Of a stretch of DNA of 64,000 bases, positions 21,095 through 56,529 are shown piece by piece. The DNA comes from Bifidobacterium sp. ESL0790. Its GTDB lineage: Bacteria > Actinomycetota > Actinomycetes > Actinomycetales > Bifidobacteriaceae. Both the position numbers and the translations under genes were made by a program. The notes beneath the pieces are model-generated. The model ran no database searches, was not told the DNA's origin, and was given only the letters and a program-made list of their open reading frames with translations. Positions within the stretch are counted from its first letter, which is position 1; each line of letters begins with the position of its first letter. The stretch is from assembly GCF_029395435.1 (NCBI RefSeq), contig NZ_CP113915.1, positions 1,736,001 through 1,800,000 of the forward strand, written 5' to 3'.

Positions 21095-21183
21095 AAACGA
21101 CAATCGGGAGTAAGCGTTTACCTACTCCCGATTGAATCTTGATTTATATCCAAAAAGCGGAGCCGGAGGGATTCGAACCCTCG
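21095..21183. other. attL: Prophage attachment site attL (left)
   Basis: An 89-base segment matches 56380-56468 with three mismatches; the last 34 bases (21150-21183), which correspond to the tRNA-Ser 3' end, are identical. It contains the duplicated downstream hairpin CGGGAGTA...TACTCCCG and the T-arm/acceptor part of tRNA-Ser. Only the 3' tRNA fragment is here; the intact gene is at the right end. The gap 20808-21239 contains this site and no other gene. Confidence 0.85.
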
Positions 21184-21239: not shown

Positions 21240-22382
21240 CTAGGACGCCGTGGTTACGTCCTGTGAGTACATTTTGAGTACATTCTGGAGAAGTATGCCG
21301 TTCATCGCGTCCCGCATTCCATTCAGATCATCGTCGAAAAGGTCGGCATAGACGTCCAGCGTCATCGCCGCGCTGCTGTGCCCCAGCTGCCTCTGCACCG
21401 CTTTGACATTTGCGCCTGAGCGCACCATCAGGCTGGCGGCGGTATGCCGGATATCGTGGATAGTCATGTGTGGGACGCCCGCGGTCTCGCAGGCCCGGTA
21501 GAACCACTTCCCCCTTCCGTTGGGATTGGTACGGCGCAAGTATGACCCGTCCGCTCCCGTGAAGAGCAGGTCGTCGTCCTTCTTCCCCTCCATGAGCTTC
21601 TTCAGGCCAGCGTCCAGGGCGTCGGGATAGACGATGGTCCTCGACTTGCCATTCTTCGGTGTCCCCTCCACGATCTCCGAACCAAGCTCGGTCGCCGTCC
21701 TCTCGATCAGTATACGATGGCGACCCGTGTCCACGTCCCCGACCCGCAGGCCCACGGCCTCACCCCACCGCATGCCACATGTGCCCAGCATCAAGACAAT
21801 CAGGCCACGCTGCTCCCCCATCGCACCGCCAGTGTTTCTGCAGGCCCGAGCCAGTGCGAAAAGCTGATCCTCGGTGAGATACACATGCTTCCGCCTCGAC
21901 TTCCGCGGCAATTCGACGCCACGCACAGGATTCCGAGCCAAAAGCCTATCCGCCACGGCATCATCCAATATGCCGGCCAGCACCCCATACGCACGGATCA
22001 CAATCGTCGCGCTGCGCTCGCCGGCCAGCCGCGTGACCCATTCCTGCACCGAACCGCGCACAATGTTCCGCACCTGCACGGGCCCCCATTTCGGCAAGAC
22101 ATGCACCCGCAAGCTGGTCTCGAGAATCCTGTATGTGCTGGGCTTGACGCTCATCCGCTTCTTCGCAAGCCAAGGCACGCTGCGCTCGCGGATTGTGACG
22201 GAGCCCGATGATTCGTCGACGAATTCGCCGTGGATCTTGCTCGACTCTTTTTCGACGGCCCATCTACGGGCGTCAATCTTGCGCTTGAAGCCTCTTTTGA
22301 CTGTTTTCCGCCCTTCGGGGGTACGGTACTGCACCATGTACTTCGTACCGCCAGAAGTCTGATACGAGCTGATGCTTGCCAT
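21240..22382 (-). CDS. int: Prophage integrase, tyrosine recombinase
   Basis: The 380-residue product has an arm-binding-type N-terminus (GTKYMVQYRTPEGRKTVKRG), a SAM-like core-binding domain (about 70-160) and a catalytic domain. The catalytic residues are visible: Arg in CGMRWGEAVGL, His-x-x-Arg in HDIRHTAASLM, LGHSSAAMTLDVYADL with the second His and the nucleophilic Tyr. It lies 57 bases inside attL and is transcribed toward it. Its 3' end overlaps a GAGTACAT tandem repeat that recurs next to attR, so the gene and an Int-binding arm appear to overlap. Confidence 0.95.
   Translation of the reverse strand: MASISSYQTSGGTKYMVQYRTPEGRKTVKRGFKRKIDARRWAVEKESSKIHGEFVDESSGSVTIRERSVPWLAKKRMSVKPSTYRILETSLRVHVLPKWGPVQVRNIVRGSVQEWVTRLAGERSATIVIRAYGVLAGILDDAVADRLLARNPVRGVELPRKSRRKHVYLTEDQLFALARACRNTGGAMGEQRGLIVLMLGTCGMRWGEAVGLRVGDVDTGRHRILIERTATELGSEIVEGTPKNGKSRTIVYPDALDAGLKKLMEGKKDDDLLFTGADGSYLRRTNPNGRGKWFYRACETAGVPHMTIHDIRHTAASLMVRSGANVKAVQRQLGHSSAAMTLDVYADLFDDDLNGMRDAMNGILLQNVLKMYSQDVTTAS
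21263..21283 (+). repeat. Putative integrase arm-type site, left copy
   Basis: Two GAGTACAT words separated by TTT, preceded by GT. The same 21-base string occurs at 56293-56313, in the same orientation, next to attR. Repeated short words on both sides of an att core are typical of arm-type Int sites. Confidence 0.6.
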
Positions 22383-28276: not shown

Positions 28277-28906
28277 ATGGAGAAACACGTATACATCACG
28301 AAGAGGCAGGCGCAGATCCTGACCCGGTACGCCACGCAGGAAAGCAACAACCCCCTGCTGCAGCACATCTTCTACCGCGACGGTTTCGCCTGGTGGACGA
28401 ACAAGTTCATCGCGTTGCGCTGGGATCTGCGCGGGAGCAAGATCGAGGACGGCCAGTGGATCGACCTGCTGCCTCCCGAGACCGCCATGGTGCCCAACCA
28501 GAAGTTCGATGTGGACGGGAACCTGGCCGCCTGGGCGAAGGTGGCCACGGCCCGCAGCTCCTGGGACATGATGGACCCGGAGCGCTGGAAGTCGGGCATA
28601 TGCAAGCCGCAGCCCGACCTGCGCGGCCTGTTCGTCCTGCCCGAGACGCCGGCCACCGTGGAGGAGGTGGCCATCAACCCCAGGTTCCTCTTCGACATGG
28701 CGGAGATGGTGGGCGGCGAGCCCAACGCCCCGCTGCGCCTGCTGCCCTCGAAATCCGACACCCCCGGGACGTCGCCATGGTGGCTGCTGGGCGGAGACGA
28801 CTACGTGGCGGCGCTGGTCGTCCCGATGCGGTCCTCGGGCTCCCAGAACCTCCCCTACACCATCAGCCAGGACACAAGCGAAGAGACTGAAGGAGACGAA
28901 TCATGA
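28277..28906 (+). CDS. Sliding-clamp-like phage replication protein
   Basis: The 209-residue product has a DnaN-like C-terminal pattern: INPRFLFDMAEMVGGE, LRLLPSKSD, WWLLGGDDYVAALVVPMR, close in form to the last domain of the beta clamp, whose end is ...MPVRL. Earlier parts (HIFYRDGFAWWTNKFIALRW) are also clamp-like strands. It probably acts in DNA replication, beside ssb. The ATG at 28277 has an AGGAGG eight bases upstream; an ATG at 28271 is too close to it. Confidence 0.65.
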   Translation: MEKHVYITKRQAQILTRYATQESNNPLLQHIFYRDGFAWWTNKFIALRWDLRGSKIEDGQWIDLLPPETAMVPNQKFDVDGNLAAWAKVATARSSWDMMDPERWKSGICKPQPDLRGLFVLPETPATVEEVAINPRFLFDMAEMVGGEPNAPLRLLPSKSDTPGTSPWWLLGGDDYVAALVVPMRSSGSQNLPYTISQDTSEETEGDES

Positions 28907-30333
28907 GCGCAAGCAAGCCAACGAAGACAGCCAACACCATCCAGATGCTGAAAGTGACCGACCTGCACCCCCATCCGGACAATCCCCGCAAGGACGTGGG
29001 CGACGTCTCGGAGCTGGCGGACAGCATCAAGGCCCAGGGAGTCAGGCAGAACCTCTTGGTGGTGCCGAACCCCGACGGCAAGGGCTGGCGTGTGGTGATC
29101 GGCCACCGTCGTCTCGCCGCGGCCAAGCTCGCGGGACTCACCCAGGTGCCCTGCGTCGTCGACGAAACTTTGGACGCCAAGAGGCAGCTCGAGCTGATGA
29201 TCGTGGAGAACTGCCAGCGGTCCGACCTGAAACCCATCGAGGAAGCCGATGCCTACCAGGGATTGCTTGACCTGGGCTCCACGGCCCCCAAGATCGCCAA
29301 GCAGACCGGCCGCAGCGCCAAGTATGTGCGTGGACGCCTGAAGATGGCCACGATACCCGATGACGTGCGAGCCAAGTCCAAGGACTTCACGCAACTCTCC
29401 GTCTCCGATCTGGAGGCGCTCGCGGAGTTCGAGGACGATCCGGAGTCCCAGGCTGAGCTCGCCGAGAAGGCCGGCACCGACAATTGGGGCTACAAGCTCG
29501 ACCAGCTGCGGGAACGCCGCATGGAACGCAAATGGAGCGCCGCCGCCCGCCTGGTCGTGGATGACCTTGGCCTGAAGGTCGAGGAGCTCGAAGGCGACCC
29601 CTATGGCCATCACGACGGCTACCGGTGGCCCGACCTGATCTATCCCATGAAGAGCGAGACCTTCAAGTACCAGTGGCTGGGGTGGCTCAACATGCATGAC
29701 GACCCCGACCCGTTGATCAGGGTGCGGCACGATCCGCACGGGATCGACAGGTACTGGGTATACGAGCACAATGCCGAAGACGCGTCCAAAGAGGAGAAAC
29801 ACAAGGAGGAGGAGAAGAAGCGCAAGGCCGAGGAACGCGCCAGGACCCAGCCGATCATGGACCTCGACAACGCCAGCCGCAAGCTCCGCGGCCAATGGCT
29901 CCACGCCAACCTCCACTCGCTCACCGAAGCCCAGTGGAGAAAGGCCGTGTCCACGATATTCCTCCACTTCATGCTGGGCGACGGCGTCTACTACTTCAAC
30001 TCGGGCGCGTCAGCCATATCCTACAAGGCCTTCATCAAGGCCTACAACCTCATCAGCGGGTGCAAGCTGGACGACAAAAGCGACACCGGTTTCATCGCCA
30101 CGACGACATTCAAGGAGCTCCAGGACAGGCAAGGCAAGAACCCCGAACACGAGACCATCCTCGCGCTCTTCGCCGACTGGGAGGCCGAAATCTGGTGGAG
30201 CCTATGGGACGACGAGGACGACCGCAAAACCACCATCCAACCCTATTACGACCTCCTCGAGTCCATCGGCTACCCCGTCAGCGACGCCGAGAAACAGGCG
30301 CTCGCGGGCGAATTCGGCAAGGACGTGTCATGA
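28903..30333 (+). CDS. ParB-like nuclease domain protein
   Basis: The 476-residue product begins with a ParB/Spo0J N-terminal domain: LHPHPDNPRKDVGDVSELAD, GWRVVIGHRRLAAAKLAG (the GHRR motif), and VENCQRSDLKPIEEADAYQG. A central helical HTH part (APKIAKQTGRSAKYVRGRL) follows, then a long C-terminal region with a charged coiled coil (about residues 290-312, KEEKHKEEEKKRKAEERART). Without a ParA gene nearby it is more likely a replication-associated ParB-like factor than a partition protein. It shares an ATGA junction with the clamp-like gene. Confidence 0.85.
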   Translation: MSASKPTKTANTIQMLKVTDLHPHPDNPRKDVGDVSELADSIKAQGVRQNLLVVPNPDGKGWRVVIGHRRLAAAKLAGLTQVPCVVDETLDAKRQLELMIVENCQRSDLKPIEEADAYQGLLDLGSTAPKIAKQTGRSAKYVRGRLKMATIPDDVRAKSKDFTQLSVSDLEALAEFEDDPESQAELAEKAGTDNWGYKLDQLRERRMERKWSAAARLVVDDLGLKVEELEGDPYGHHDGYRWPDLIYPMKSETFKYQWLGWLNMHDDPDPLIRVRHDPHGIDRYWVYEHNAEDASKEEKHKEEEKKRKAEERARTQPIMDLDNASRKLRGQWLHANLHSLTEAQWRKAVSTIFLHFMLGDGVYYFNSGASAISYKAFIKAYNLISGCKLDDKSDTGFIATTTFKELQDRQGKNPEHETILALFADWEAEIWWSLWDDEDDRKTTIQPYYDLLESIGYPVSDAEKQALAGEFGKDVS

Positions 30334-51628: not shown

Positions 51629-52483
51629 ATGGCAGACTCAAACGGCTTCGTCCTACACCCACTCGCCAGCGACGGCACCACAGACGTCCCCTACACCGCG
51701 GCGGACTACCGCATGGCCGTCAATTCCATCCAAGCCGCGCCTGATGGCACACCCTTCGGCGGCCTCTCAGGCATCCGCGCGGGATCACCCTCACCACTCG
51801 TATCCTGCGACGGCACCACCGTGACGATAGCCGCGCACGCCGGCTGGATCTGCGCTTTTGGGCGCATGTACTCCTACGCCATCACCCGCGACTACGAGCT
51901 CAGAATCCCCACCAGCACAGGCAGCTACAAGATCGCCCTCACCGCCGACGACAAGGCCGCCGGCCATGGCGATGGCGAAAAGCTCTCCGCCACCGCCTAC
52001 CCGGCCACGACCCCGGACTCTCAGATTCCCGGCATGGTCATCGCCCGCATCGACGCCGGAGTAGCCAGCGACACCGCACTCACCCTCCAAACCGACATGC
52101 TCATCACCGCCCCGAGCCTCGACCGACTCAAAACGGTATCTGGCATCGAAGGGCAGCGCGCTGCGCTCGCCGACGGCACAGAATATGCGCTGCGAAACGG
52201 CGTGTGGGTCCCGCGAACCCAGTTTTCGCAGAGTGGCACATGGGAAGGAACCGTCACCAAGGAAAACACCTGGTACGGCTACAATTTTGGGATTGTCCAT
52301 ATCGAGTTGGACACCAACATGGGAAACACGGATTATGAGATTTTCGCGCAGCCCATGCAGGGTGAAGTCATTTCCTGGGTGACAGTAAAAAGCCGAAGCG
52401 TCGACGGCTTTGATCTGCGAGCCACGATGGCCGGAATGGACAGCATGGATCTGCGAATCTTTTGGGAGGTCAGGGCCGCGTAG
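51629..52483 (+). CDS. Receptor-binding protein with the currently expressed C-terminal cassette
   Basis: The 284-residue product has a conserved N-terminal part (residues 1 to about 190; VLHPLASDGTTDVPYTAADY, GGLSGIRAGSPSPLVSCDGT) and, after VWVPRTQ, a variable C-terminal domain (SGTWEGTVTKENTWYGYNFG to IFWEVRAA). The codons for VPRTQ lie on the 16-base recombination site at 52206-52221. Two alternative C-termini lie downstream and an inversion recombinase follows, so the receptor specificity is probably phase-variable. Confidence 0.85.
   Translation: MADSNGFVLHPLASDGTTDVPYTAADYRMAVNSIQAAPDGTPFGGLSGIRAGSPSPLVSCDGTTVTIAAHAGWICAFGRMYSYAITRDYELRIPTSTGSYKIALTADDKAAGHGDGEKLSATAYPATTPDSQIPGMVIARIDAGVASDTALTLQTDMLITAPSLDRLKTVSGIEGQRAALADGTEYALRNGVWVPRTQFSQSGTWEGTVTKENTWYGYNFGIVHIELDTNMGNTDYEIFAQPMQGEVISWVTVKSRSVDGFDLRATMAGMDSMDLRIFWEVRAA
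52206..52221 (+). repeat. Recombination site A in the RBP gene
   Basis: GGGTCCCGCGAACCCA in the reading frame V-P-R-T-Q. An exact inverted copy is at 53064-53079, and its 12-base core TCCCGCGAACCC recurs at 52485-52496. Confidence 0.8.
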
Positions 52484-52484
52484 C

Positions 52485-52496
52485 TCCCGCGAACCC
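52485..52496 (+). repeat. Recombination site B, direct copy of the core
   Basis: TCCCGCGAACCC follows the stop codon of the expressed cassette and reads in frame P-R-T into the silent cassette 2, which continues to 52756. The flanking bases differ from site A, so it may be less efficient. Confidence 0.65.
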
Positions 52497-52504
52497 GCGC
52501 GGGC

Positions 52505-52756
52505 GTGTGGACTGGCAAGATGGATTTGGATCACGAGTGGCACGGCGCATATTTTGGCGAGGTGGATGTGCCACTCGGCATTGATATGGGGTCCGCCGAT
52601 TACGTCTGCCAGGTCACACCAATCAATGACAATATCCTGATCGGCGCGCTGGTCAAGATCCGCAACACAGATTCGCTGCATCTTTTCGTCTGGTCTCAAG
52701 GTCCCCAATCCGCGACCGATGTCACGATCTCGTGGACTGTCGGCGCGCGTCTATGA
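52505..52756 (+). CDS. Silent RBP C-terminal cassette 2
   Basis: An 83-codon frame (KMDLDHEWHGAYFGEVDVPL ... VTISWTVGARL) whose upstream codons read L-P-R-T-R-A-G, matching the crossover in the RBP gene. It is homologous to the expressed cassette (AGVWTG versus SGTWEG, and a common W-x-V end). No ribosome binding site is seen, so it is probably a silent partner that can be joined to the RBP N-terminal part by inversion rather than an independent gene. Confidence 0.7.
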   Translation: MWTGKMDLDHEWHGAYFGEVDVPLGIDMGSADYVCQVTPINDNILIGALVKIRNTDSLHLFVWSQGPQSATDVTISWTVGARL

Positions 52757-53053
52757 CGCGAGCCATGCGCCATAGACGCCGTAATTGGTCTGCGTGGCTA
52801 CGGTCCCGCAGGCGTGGATTTTATGGTCGGTATCAGATAGATCCAGGCGCAGTATTTGGCCGCCTTGTCCGAAAAGCATGATCTGCGCGGGTTTGCGAGC
52901 GGGCCACGCCCATGTGGGGAATGATGACGCCTCACCTATTCCGGTCCAGTTCACGGGCCCGGAATAGGAGGCATACGTATCCCCCGATGCGGTGACCAGA
53001 TCTCCACGCTTGGATAATCTGACGACTATGTTCCACGCGCAAAACCAGTCCAC
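52751..53053 (-). CDS. Silent RBP C-terminal cassette 3 (inverted)
   Basis: The minus-strand frame reads V-P-R-T-Q-V-L-E-V-D-W upstream of the listed start, matching the crossover codons of the RBP gene. The product end (NIVVRLSKRGDLVTASGDTY ... TNYGVYGAWLAS) has a different fold from cassettes 1 and 2 but is similar in length. It lies back to back with cassette 2, overlapping by six bases. Inversion between site A and site C would put it in frame with the RBP. Confidence 0.7.
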   Translation of the reverse strand: MDWFCAWNIVVRLSKRGDLVTASGDTYASYSGPVNWTGIGEASSFPTWAWPARKPAQIMLFGQGGQILRLDLSDTDHKIHACGTVATQTNYGVYGAWLAS

Positions 53054-53063
53054 CTCCAGGACT

Positions 53064-53079
53064 TGGGTTCGCGGGACCC
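53064..53079 (-). repeat. Recombination site C, inverted copy
   Basis: Exact inverted copy of the 16-base site A, one base before the recombinase stop codon. Recombination A-C would invert about 870 bases. Confidence 0.8.
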
Positions 53080-53946
53080 TTACGAAGCCATGATGCTGTG
53101 CTCCCAGAGCTTTTGAGCATCACGCAGGACTGACAGCTCGGGCCTCAAGTAGTAGCGTGCAGTGGTCGATATGTCACTGTGCCCCAGGGCGCGACTGACG
53201 ATTGCGACATCGACGCCGGCGGCGAGAGCCGTGGTCGCCCAAGAGTGGCGTAGGTTTCGTCGGGGTACCCATGGCAAGTTATTTTTCCGACACCGTGTGC
53301 GGTATCTCCTCGCTACTTGGTTAGGATTAAGGTCACCGATTATCCTGCCCTTGCGCCCATGTCGAATTTGTCGAAGGCGCTTGACGGCGAATCTTGGCAG
53401 AATCACGGTCCTTCGCGATAGGTTGGTCTTGGGGTCCACGATGACCTCATGACCTCCTACCCATTGCAAACCCCGCTCGATGGACACATGGCCATCGCGT
53501 AGATTGATATCAGTCCATTCCAGCCCCAATGCCTCCTCGGTGCGCAAGCCTAAGGTCACACTGCAGATAAGCCAAGCTTCGAGGGGATGATTGTAAAACC
53601 CCTGCAGCAAAGTCCGTATCTGATGAGAGTTAAGTACTGCAGGGTGATAGTTACAGCGCTTTGGTGACTGTACCCGAAGTGTGATGTCTCGCTCGAGATC
53701 TCCCCAACGTACGGCTTTGCGGAGGATACTGCGGAGCACAGACCACGCCTTTCTCGCAGCTCCTCTGGAGGGCATGCCCGCGATCCAAGCTTCCACGCCT
53801 TGCACGTCGATATCATCCAGCTTCATTTCGCCGAAGACGGGCAGGATGTGCAGACGCAGCGCAGACTCGTAACCCACCATCGTGCACTCCCTAAGCGCCG
53901 CGCAGGATGGACGCCATTTTGCGTCGACGAATTCATTCAGTATCAA
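53080..53946 (-). CDS. rin: Tyrosine recombinase of the RBP inversion system
   Basis: The 288-residue product is a second tyrosine recombinase, distinct from the integrase. A SAM-like core-binding domain (YESALRLHILPVFGEMKLDD) precedes the catalytic domain with Arg in TLGLRTEEALGLEW, LGHSDISTTARYY (His, then Tyr). The usual HxxR is RNLRHSWAT here, so the box II His appears replaced by Arg. The TTG at 53946 was chosen because AAGGAG lies seven bases before it; the longer upstream frame overlaps plus-strand genes. Placement next to inverted sites and cassettes supports the Rin role described for bifidobacterial prophages. Confidence 0.85.
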   Translation of the reverse strand: MILNEFVDAKWRPSCAALRECTMVGYESALRLHILPVFGEMKLDDIDVQGVEAWIAGMPSRGAARKAWSVLRSILRKAVRWGDLERDITLRVQSPKRCNYHPAVLNSHQIRTLLQGFYNHPLEAWLICSVTLGLRTEEALGLEWTDINLRDGHVSIERGLQWVGGHEVIVDPKTNLSRRTVILPRFAVKRLRQIRHGRKGRIIGDLNPNQVARRYRTRCRKNNLPWVPRRNLRHSWATTALAAGVDVAIVSRALGHSDISTTARYYLRPELSVLRDAQKLWEHSIMAS

Positions 53947-56379: not shown

Positions 56380-56468
56380 AAACGACAATCGGGAGTAAGC
56401 GTTTGCCTACTCCCGACTGAATCTTGATTTATACCCAAAAAGCGGAGCCGGAGGGATTCGAACCCTCG
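56380..56468. other. attR: Prophage attachment site attR (right)
   Basis: An 89-base match to 21095-21183 with three mismatches; the 34 bases at 56435-56468 that overlap the tRNA 3' end are identical. The direct repeat defines a prophage of about 35.3 kb between the two copies. The hairpin CGGGAGTA...TACTCCCG in this block is also a plausible tRNA-Ser terminator. Confidence 0.85.
56390..56418 (-). terminator. tRNA-Ser terminator hairpin within attR
   Basis: On the minus strand TCGGGAGTA and TACTCCCGA pair around a short loop, followed by TTGTCGTTT. It is about 30 bases downstream of the tRNA 3' end, and it is duplicated in attL. Confidence 0.7.
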
Positions 56469-56529
56469 AACCGCTTGCGCAGTTAACACCTTAGCAGGGT
56501 GCCCCTATCGGCCACTCAGGCACAGCTCC
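56443..56529 (-). tRNA. tRNA-Ser (anticodon GCU), intact, prophage target
   Basis: Full class II cloverleaf. The 5' acceptor GGAGCTG pairs with CGGCTCC (one G-U). The D-arm region is CCTGAGTGGCCGATAGGGG, the anticodon loop CTGCTAA gives GCU, and a long variable arm follows. The T-arm is GAGGG TTCGAAT CCCTC. CCA is not encoded. The prophage integrated at its 3' end and kept the gene intact; the left att carries only the 3' part. Confidence 0.95.

Follow-up and report, generated by a model that had tools for sequence, protein, structure and literature searches.

The window analysed here, a 64,000-nucleotide stretch of DNA from Bifidobacterium sp. ESL0790, contains a prophage (Table 1) in which terminase, portal, capsid, tape measure, Dit and endolysin genes are recognizable. 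A ParB-like protein (ParB_N + HTH_ParB) is also encoded inside the prophage, at 28903-30333. Dit and the minor tail genes are followed by a putative receptor-binding protein (RBP) gene and then by the lysis genes, which is the usual position of an RBP. Since family and PDB searches with the window RBP gave no matches, its role is assigned from the gene order, from cassette C and from the layout of the locus; the AlphaFold model of the protein is of low confidence (mean pLDDT 41).

Table 1. Features of the prophage and its RBP locus, with positions in the window
Feature	Position	Strand	Basis or remark
Prophage, ~35 kb	21095-56468		89-bp direct repeat (96.6%), blastn of flanks; ARAGORN
Left copy of 89-bp repeat	about 21095-21183		blastn of flanks
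Integrase of the prophage, a different tyrosine recombinase	21240-22382	-	PF00589; 29% identical to the invertase
Stem, constant N-terminal half of the tail RBP, ~193 aa	51629-52205	+	ORF; place after Dit/minor tail genes; homologues G094, BlindUri1, BlindBasel1
Site A	52206-52221	+	Exact 16-mer GGGTCCCGCGAACCCA, within the RBP gene
Cassette A, tip presently fused to the stem, with stop codon	52222-52483	+	ORF; paralogue of cassette B
Site B	52485-52496	+	12-nt core TCCCGCGAACCC, same orientation as A, right behind the RBP stop
Cassette B, silent tip, with stop codon	52497-52756	+	ORF; paralogue of cassette A
Cassette C, silent tip, with stop codon	52751-53063	-	ORF; belongs to the largest Rin cassette family
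Site C	53064-53079	-	16-mer GGGTCCCGCGAACCCA, exact inverted copy of A; touches the recombinase stop codon
Predicted Rin-type tyrosine invertase, 288 aa	53080-53946	-	PF00589 + PF14659; alignment A1; tree
Right copy of 89-bp repeat	about 56380-56468		Overlaps tRNA-Ser(GCT) 56442-56529 (ARAGORN)

Three tips of about 85-105 aa each, all open in frame with the stem, are arranged around three short sites. Site B starts directly downstream of the RBP stop codon (TAG, 52481-52483), has 12 nt in common with A and C and lacks their right-hand CCC. A preliminary description of this DNA had placed a 16-base site, its exact inverted copy and a 12-base core copy at these positions, which hold base for base, and had read P-R-T in frame before all three cassettes, as the translations across the sites confirm: GVWVPRTQ for cassette A, LPRTR for cassette B and VPRTQ for cassette C. 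Its distinction between two paralogous cassettes and an unrelated one also stands, A and B being 32% identical (z ~20 relative to shuffles) and C unrelated in sequence to either. Its statement that the recombinase gene ends one base from the inverted copy was inexact, as nothing separates the stop codon (53080-53082) from site C. Cassette C scored 16.6 bits against a profile of 59 Rin cassettes, compared with 5.3 bits for the best of 500 shuffles. Searches of IMG/VR with the window RBP, with cassette C and with a two-row RBP alignment found no relatives.

Exact 16-nt inverted matches no more than 3 kb apart are expected by chance at a mean of 0.05 per window (60 simulated windows that keep the dinucleotide transitions of the real one). 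A match with three mismatches, like site B, is expected 1.18 times per window and is unremarkable alone; site B is distinctive because of its position after the RBP stop, the open in-frame cassette that it precedes and its 12 shared bases, which span the conserved 11-nt core of the family. The 11-mer CCCGCGAACCC occurs five times in the genome (2.25 Mb), and three of these occurrences are at this locus. The possibility that the sites are att remnants was considered and dismissed. In IMG/VR the 15-nt site of the window has four exact matches, none of them near a Rin recombinase or a related RBP, and these are attributed to chance.

The tyrosine recombinase and its relatives

The recombinase encoded next to site C starts with TTG, preceded by AAGGAGTG, and comprises a SAM-like core-binding domain (PF14659, residues 18-56) and a Phage_integrase domain (PF00589, residues 105-266); an arm-binding domain is absent, with nothing N-terminal of residue 18. 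The latter domain makes it a tyrosine-type enzyme, distinct from the serine recombinases Min, Cin and Gin. Its identification as the integrase of the prophage was rejected, as that function is assigned to the separate, 29% identical gene at 21240-22382. R135, K173, R233, H256 and Y265 are invariant across alignment A1, in which the window enzyme shares 50-66% identity with the remaining 13 members; the first His of the usual HxxR motif varies in the family. Relatives at 53-66% identity were found in 14 of 189 Bifidobacteriaceae genomes, the window's own not counted, and split or degraded copies are also present among the 189; IMG/VR has 45 loci with an invertase relative, some of which are the same phages. 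The recombinase genes of L035 (G067) and L041 (G155) carry one in-frame TAA each and possibly represent locked switches. A profile search of the genome contigs with the recombinase alignment recovered general tyrosine recombinases only (22-33% identity), and these were left out of the comparison.

In the phylogenetic tree, the window invertase is nested in a Bifidobacteriaceae clade. The core of the published rix site, TTCCCTAACCC (PMC6109161), is present in several members of this clade, which fall on two separate branches. The tie to the published Rin systems runs through this site: several clade members have GGGTTAGGGAA, its reverse complement. The window core equals rix at 7 of 11 positions and differs at the other 4, a mismatch not counted as disqualifying because site cores vary inside the recombinase clade.

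The layout of the locus is widely conserved. Almost every relative has a GGGTTnnnGAA-like site that abuts the stop codon of its recombinase or overlaps with it, and 52 of 59 scanned loci (a set that includes some phages counted twice) have an inverted copy of it upstream, as a rule within a tail gene. Up to seven further sites occur in either orientation, for a total of up to nine, including many direct pairs; the commonest length shared among the sites is 11-13 nt. The three-site layout of the window recurs in L037, L133, L141 and L158. In L147, the site beside the recombinase stop reads GGGATTCCCTATCCC, with symmetric arms around a reversed spacer; no partner for it was found by the site scan used.

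A candidate three-site shufflon

At each of the three sites, the recombinase is proposed to exchange strands inside a core of 11-12 nt. State 1, the arrangement as assembled, would present tip A on the stem. Inversion between A and C would convert it into state 2, with tip C joined to the constant half of the RBP, and inversion between A and B from state 2 would lead to state 3, in which tip B is expressed. This order, given in the preliminary description, would indeed reach each cassette; a second route, B with C followed by A with C, would also lead from state 1 to state 3. Inversion between B and C alone would produce a fourth arrangement, with tip A remaining the one expressed. By inversion, the locus would have access to four arrangements and three alternative C-terminal tips, and every fusion would be open because the sites lie in frame. 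Direct recombination between A and B would instead remove tip A.

Natural rearrangements of this kind are found between relatives. L157 matches L158 at 100% identity over flanks of 3,586 bp and 889 bp; between these flanks, one segment is inverted (100% identity) and another is relocated in unchanged orientation, which requires two inversions. The difference is that between the predicted states 1 and 3 of the window. The flanking bases change over at the core of each site; in L158, A-B and A-C have just 12 nt in common. Further pairs that differ by site-bounded inversions are L134/L135 and L159/L164. The last two are prophage loci that are nearly identical and lie on the same 83.7-kb contig (IMGVR_UViG_2877182016_000001, 67701-80567 and 25248-38114), with differently arranged cassettes; their flanks are 99.8-100% identical and one 645-bp segment is inverted, a difference that may be an assembly artefact. 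All near-identical pairs compared showed inversions, and no cassette was lost. These natural pairs place the crossover within the 11-12-nt core, and a short B site is typical, 12 shared nucleotides having sufficed in relatives. In the comparison of related loci proposed in the preliminary description, site-bounded inversions were seen in the loci of relatives, and none was seen of the window's own locus.

Recombinase phylogeny, a layout conserved in dozens of relatives and natural site-bounded inversion pairs, one of them with the same three-site geometry, support the earlier proposal of a Rin-type RBP inversion with a dedicated recombinase. With a probability of slightly more than nine in ten, we interpret the window locus as a three-site Rin shufflon, in which a tyrosine recombinase swaps RBP tips by inversion.

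The main competing interpretations accept the ancestry of the locus and limit what it does at present. In one, inversion is confined to A and C, because site B has too little length or too much divergence to be used, and cassette B is a silent remnant. The 12 nt that B shares with A and C, and the missing right-hand CCC, would fit such a two-state switch; nevertheless, sites of relatives most often share a similar length, L157/L158 were rearranged through 12 shared nucleotides, and cassette B, itself intact, reads in frame from site B, which makes this interpretation unlikely. We judge it quite improbable that the locus descended from a working Rin switch and is now static in this strain. Inactivation does occur, as the in-frame stops in the recombinases of G067 and G155 imply, and the rin gene of the published Bl30698phi1 likewise has one (PMC6109161). 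Moreover, no second arrangement of the window locus was found in the single assembly covered or in IMG/VR, the latter being without a close relative of its RBP or of cassette C. However, the window recombinase has its full length and retains the conserved catalytic residues, A equals C over 16 nt, and the three cassettes are all open in frame.

The direct orientation of A and B also raises the possibility of a deletion through which tip A is lost and tip B becomes permanent, and the question of how such enzymes avoid deletion arises for the published Rin system too (PMC6109161). Such an outcome is very improbable, given that relatives have kept up to nine sites, many in direct pairs, and that the compared near-identical pairs show inversions without cassette loss. 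Finally, tyrosine recombinases are frequent in prophages, and chance repeats beside an ordinary phage integrase could in principle imitate a switch where there is none. The integrase of this prophage is another gene, however, the repeats are improbable by chance, and the same site position in dozens of relatives, together with the comparative data, contradicts this idea, to which we give practically no weight.

Under the preferred reading of a three-site Rin shufflon, this copy would presumably be active in the strain, and its three tips may bind different host receptors. Tip switching has been proposed as one reason why phages of bifidobacteria are difficult to plaque (PMC6109161).

Stem types and comparison with known systems

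Neither BLASTP nor profiles reveal any similarity between the window stem (193 aa) and the main Rin stem family (42 loci), although the profiles were built from few sequences and a distant common fold is possible. An unlike stem was not counted as disqualifying because other stem types (L034/L035, L043 and L173) also accompany the invertase family. In L173 (1640-3540), a Rin-type recombinase and sites are found on a quite different tail stem, with 113 aa before the site and GAWVPVTR at the joint. The RBP of L142, an ordinary Rin locus with the published rix core, has a predicted fold like those of the RBPs of lactococcal phages p2 and 1358.

Relatives of the window stem also occur where no invertase was detected. 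The G094 stem is 51% identical, its joint (GGGTCCACCGAACGCA) equals the window site at 13 of 16 bases, and sequence searches of the G094 genome gave no match to the recombinase. The stems of BlindUri1 and BlindBasel1 are 31-34% identical to that of the window, a similarity that stops at residues 193/194, which is the position of the site; the tips of the two phages are unlike each other. These bee-gut bifidophages (L196:4308-5258 and L197:4995-5951) show ~80% DNA identity to one another through the RBP stem, followed by different tips. No invertase is annotated near their RBP, and a small reverse ORF behind it resembles a coiled-coil membrane protein. Invertase-free inversion in these phages was rejected, as their inverted repeats frame no second tip.

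Cassette C is a member of the largest family of ordinary Rin cassettes, so tips seem to pass from one stem type to another. One tentative and rather doubtful scenario is that the Rin invertase-cassette module moved onto several unrelated stems, that the site was drawn from the stem's own joint codons, and that recombinase specificity followed.

The closest known system is the Rin shufflon of the dnaJ2 prophages Bb423phi1, Bl157phi1 and Bl30698phi1 (Mavrich 2018, PMC6109161). Both have an arm-less tyrosine invertase adjoining the RBP gene and a separate integrase; short asymmetric sites within the RBP gene, behind its stop and before each inverted cassette; and an in-frame swap of tips of roughly 90-105 aa (PMC6109161). 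They differ in the site core (GGGTTCGCGGG in the window, GGGTTAGGGAA in the usual Rin loci), in the integration site (tRNA-Ser versus dnaJ2) and in the number of tips, three in the window and five possible in Bb423phi1 (PMC6109161), as well as in the stem, since no sequence similarity was detected between that of the window and the usual Rin stem (~165 aa). Bifidobacterium phages PMBT6 and Siphoviridae sp. ctl617 share the recombinase family (53-56% identity) and have related inverted repeats next to genes for small tips, but with the site core TTACGGAA and other cassettes; in their records the recombinase is annotated as 'integrase', and no invertase system is annotated. Clade 1 prophages of Eggerthella lenta have a Rin-like shufflon (PMC8778435) that likewise combines a tyrosine recombinase, small variable tip genes, a constant tail gene and a short asymmetric repeat at every junction. 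However, its repeat is ttccgtat, its host belongs to another class and its tips often have H-type lectin domains; it is set beside the window by its description. Min of p15B and Cin and Gin of P1 and Mu also exchange the C-terminal part of a tail fibre gene by inversion, but they are serine recombinases with other sites, which makes the likeness a functional analogy without kinship.

The window locus is a new, diverged example of Rin, described in 2018, and not a new type of system. What appears to be new, modestly and as judged from sequence, is its site core together with a constant RBP half unlike the usual Rin stem. Judging from this member, the Rin module seems able to operate on a second type of stem and through a diverged site, so that its site specificity and modularity become open to comparison.
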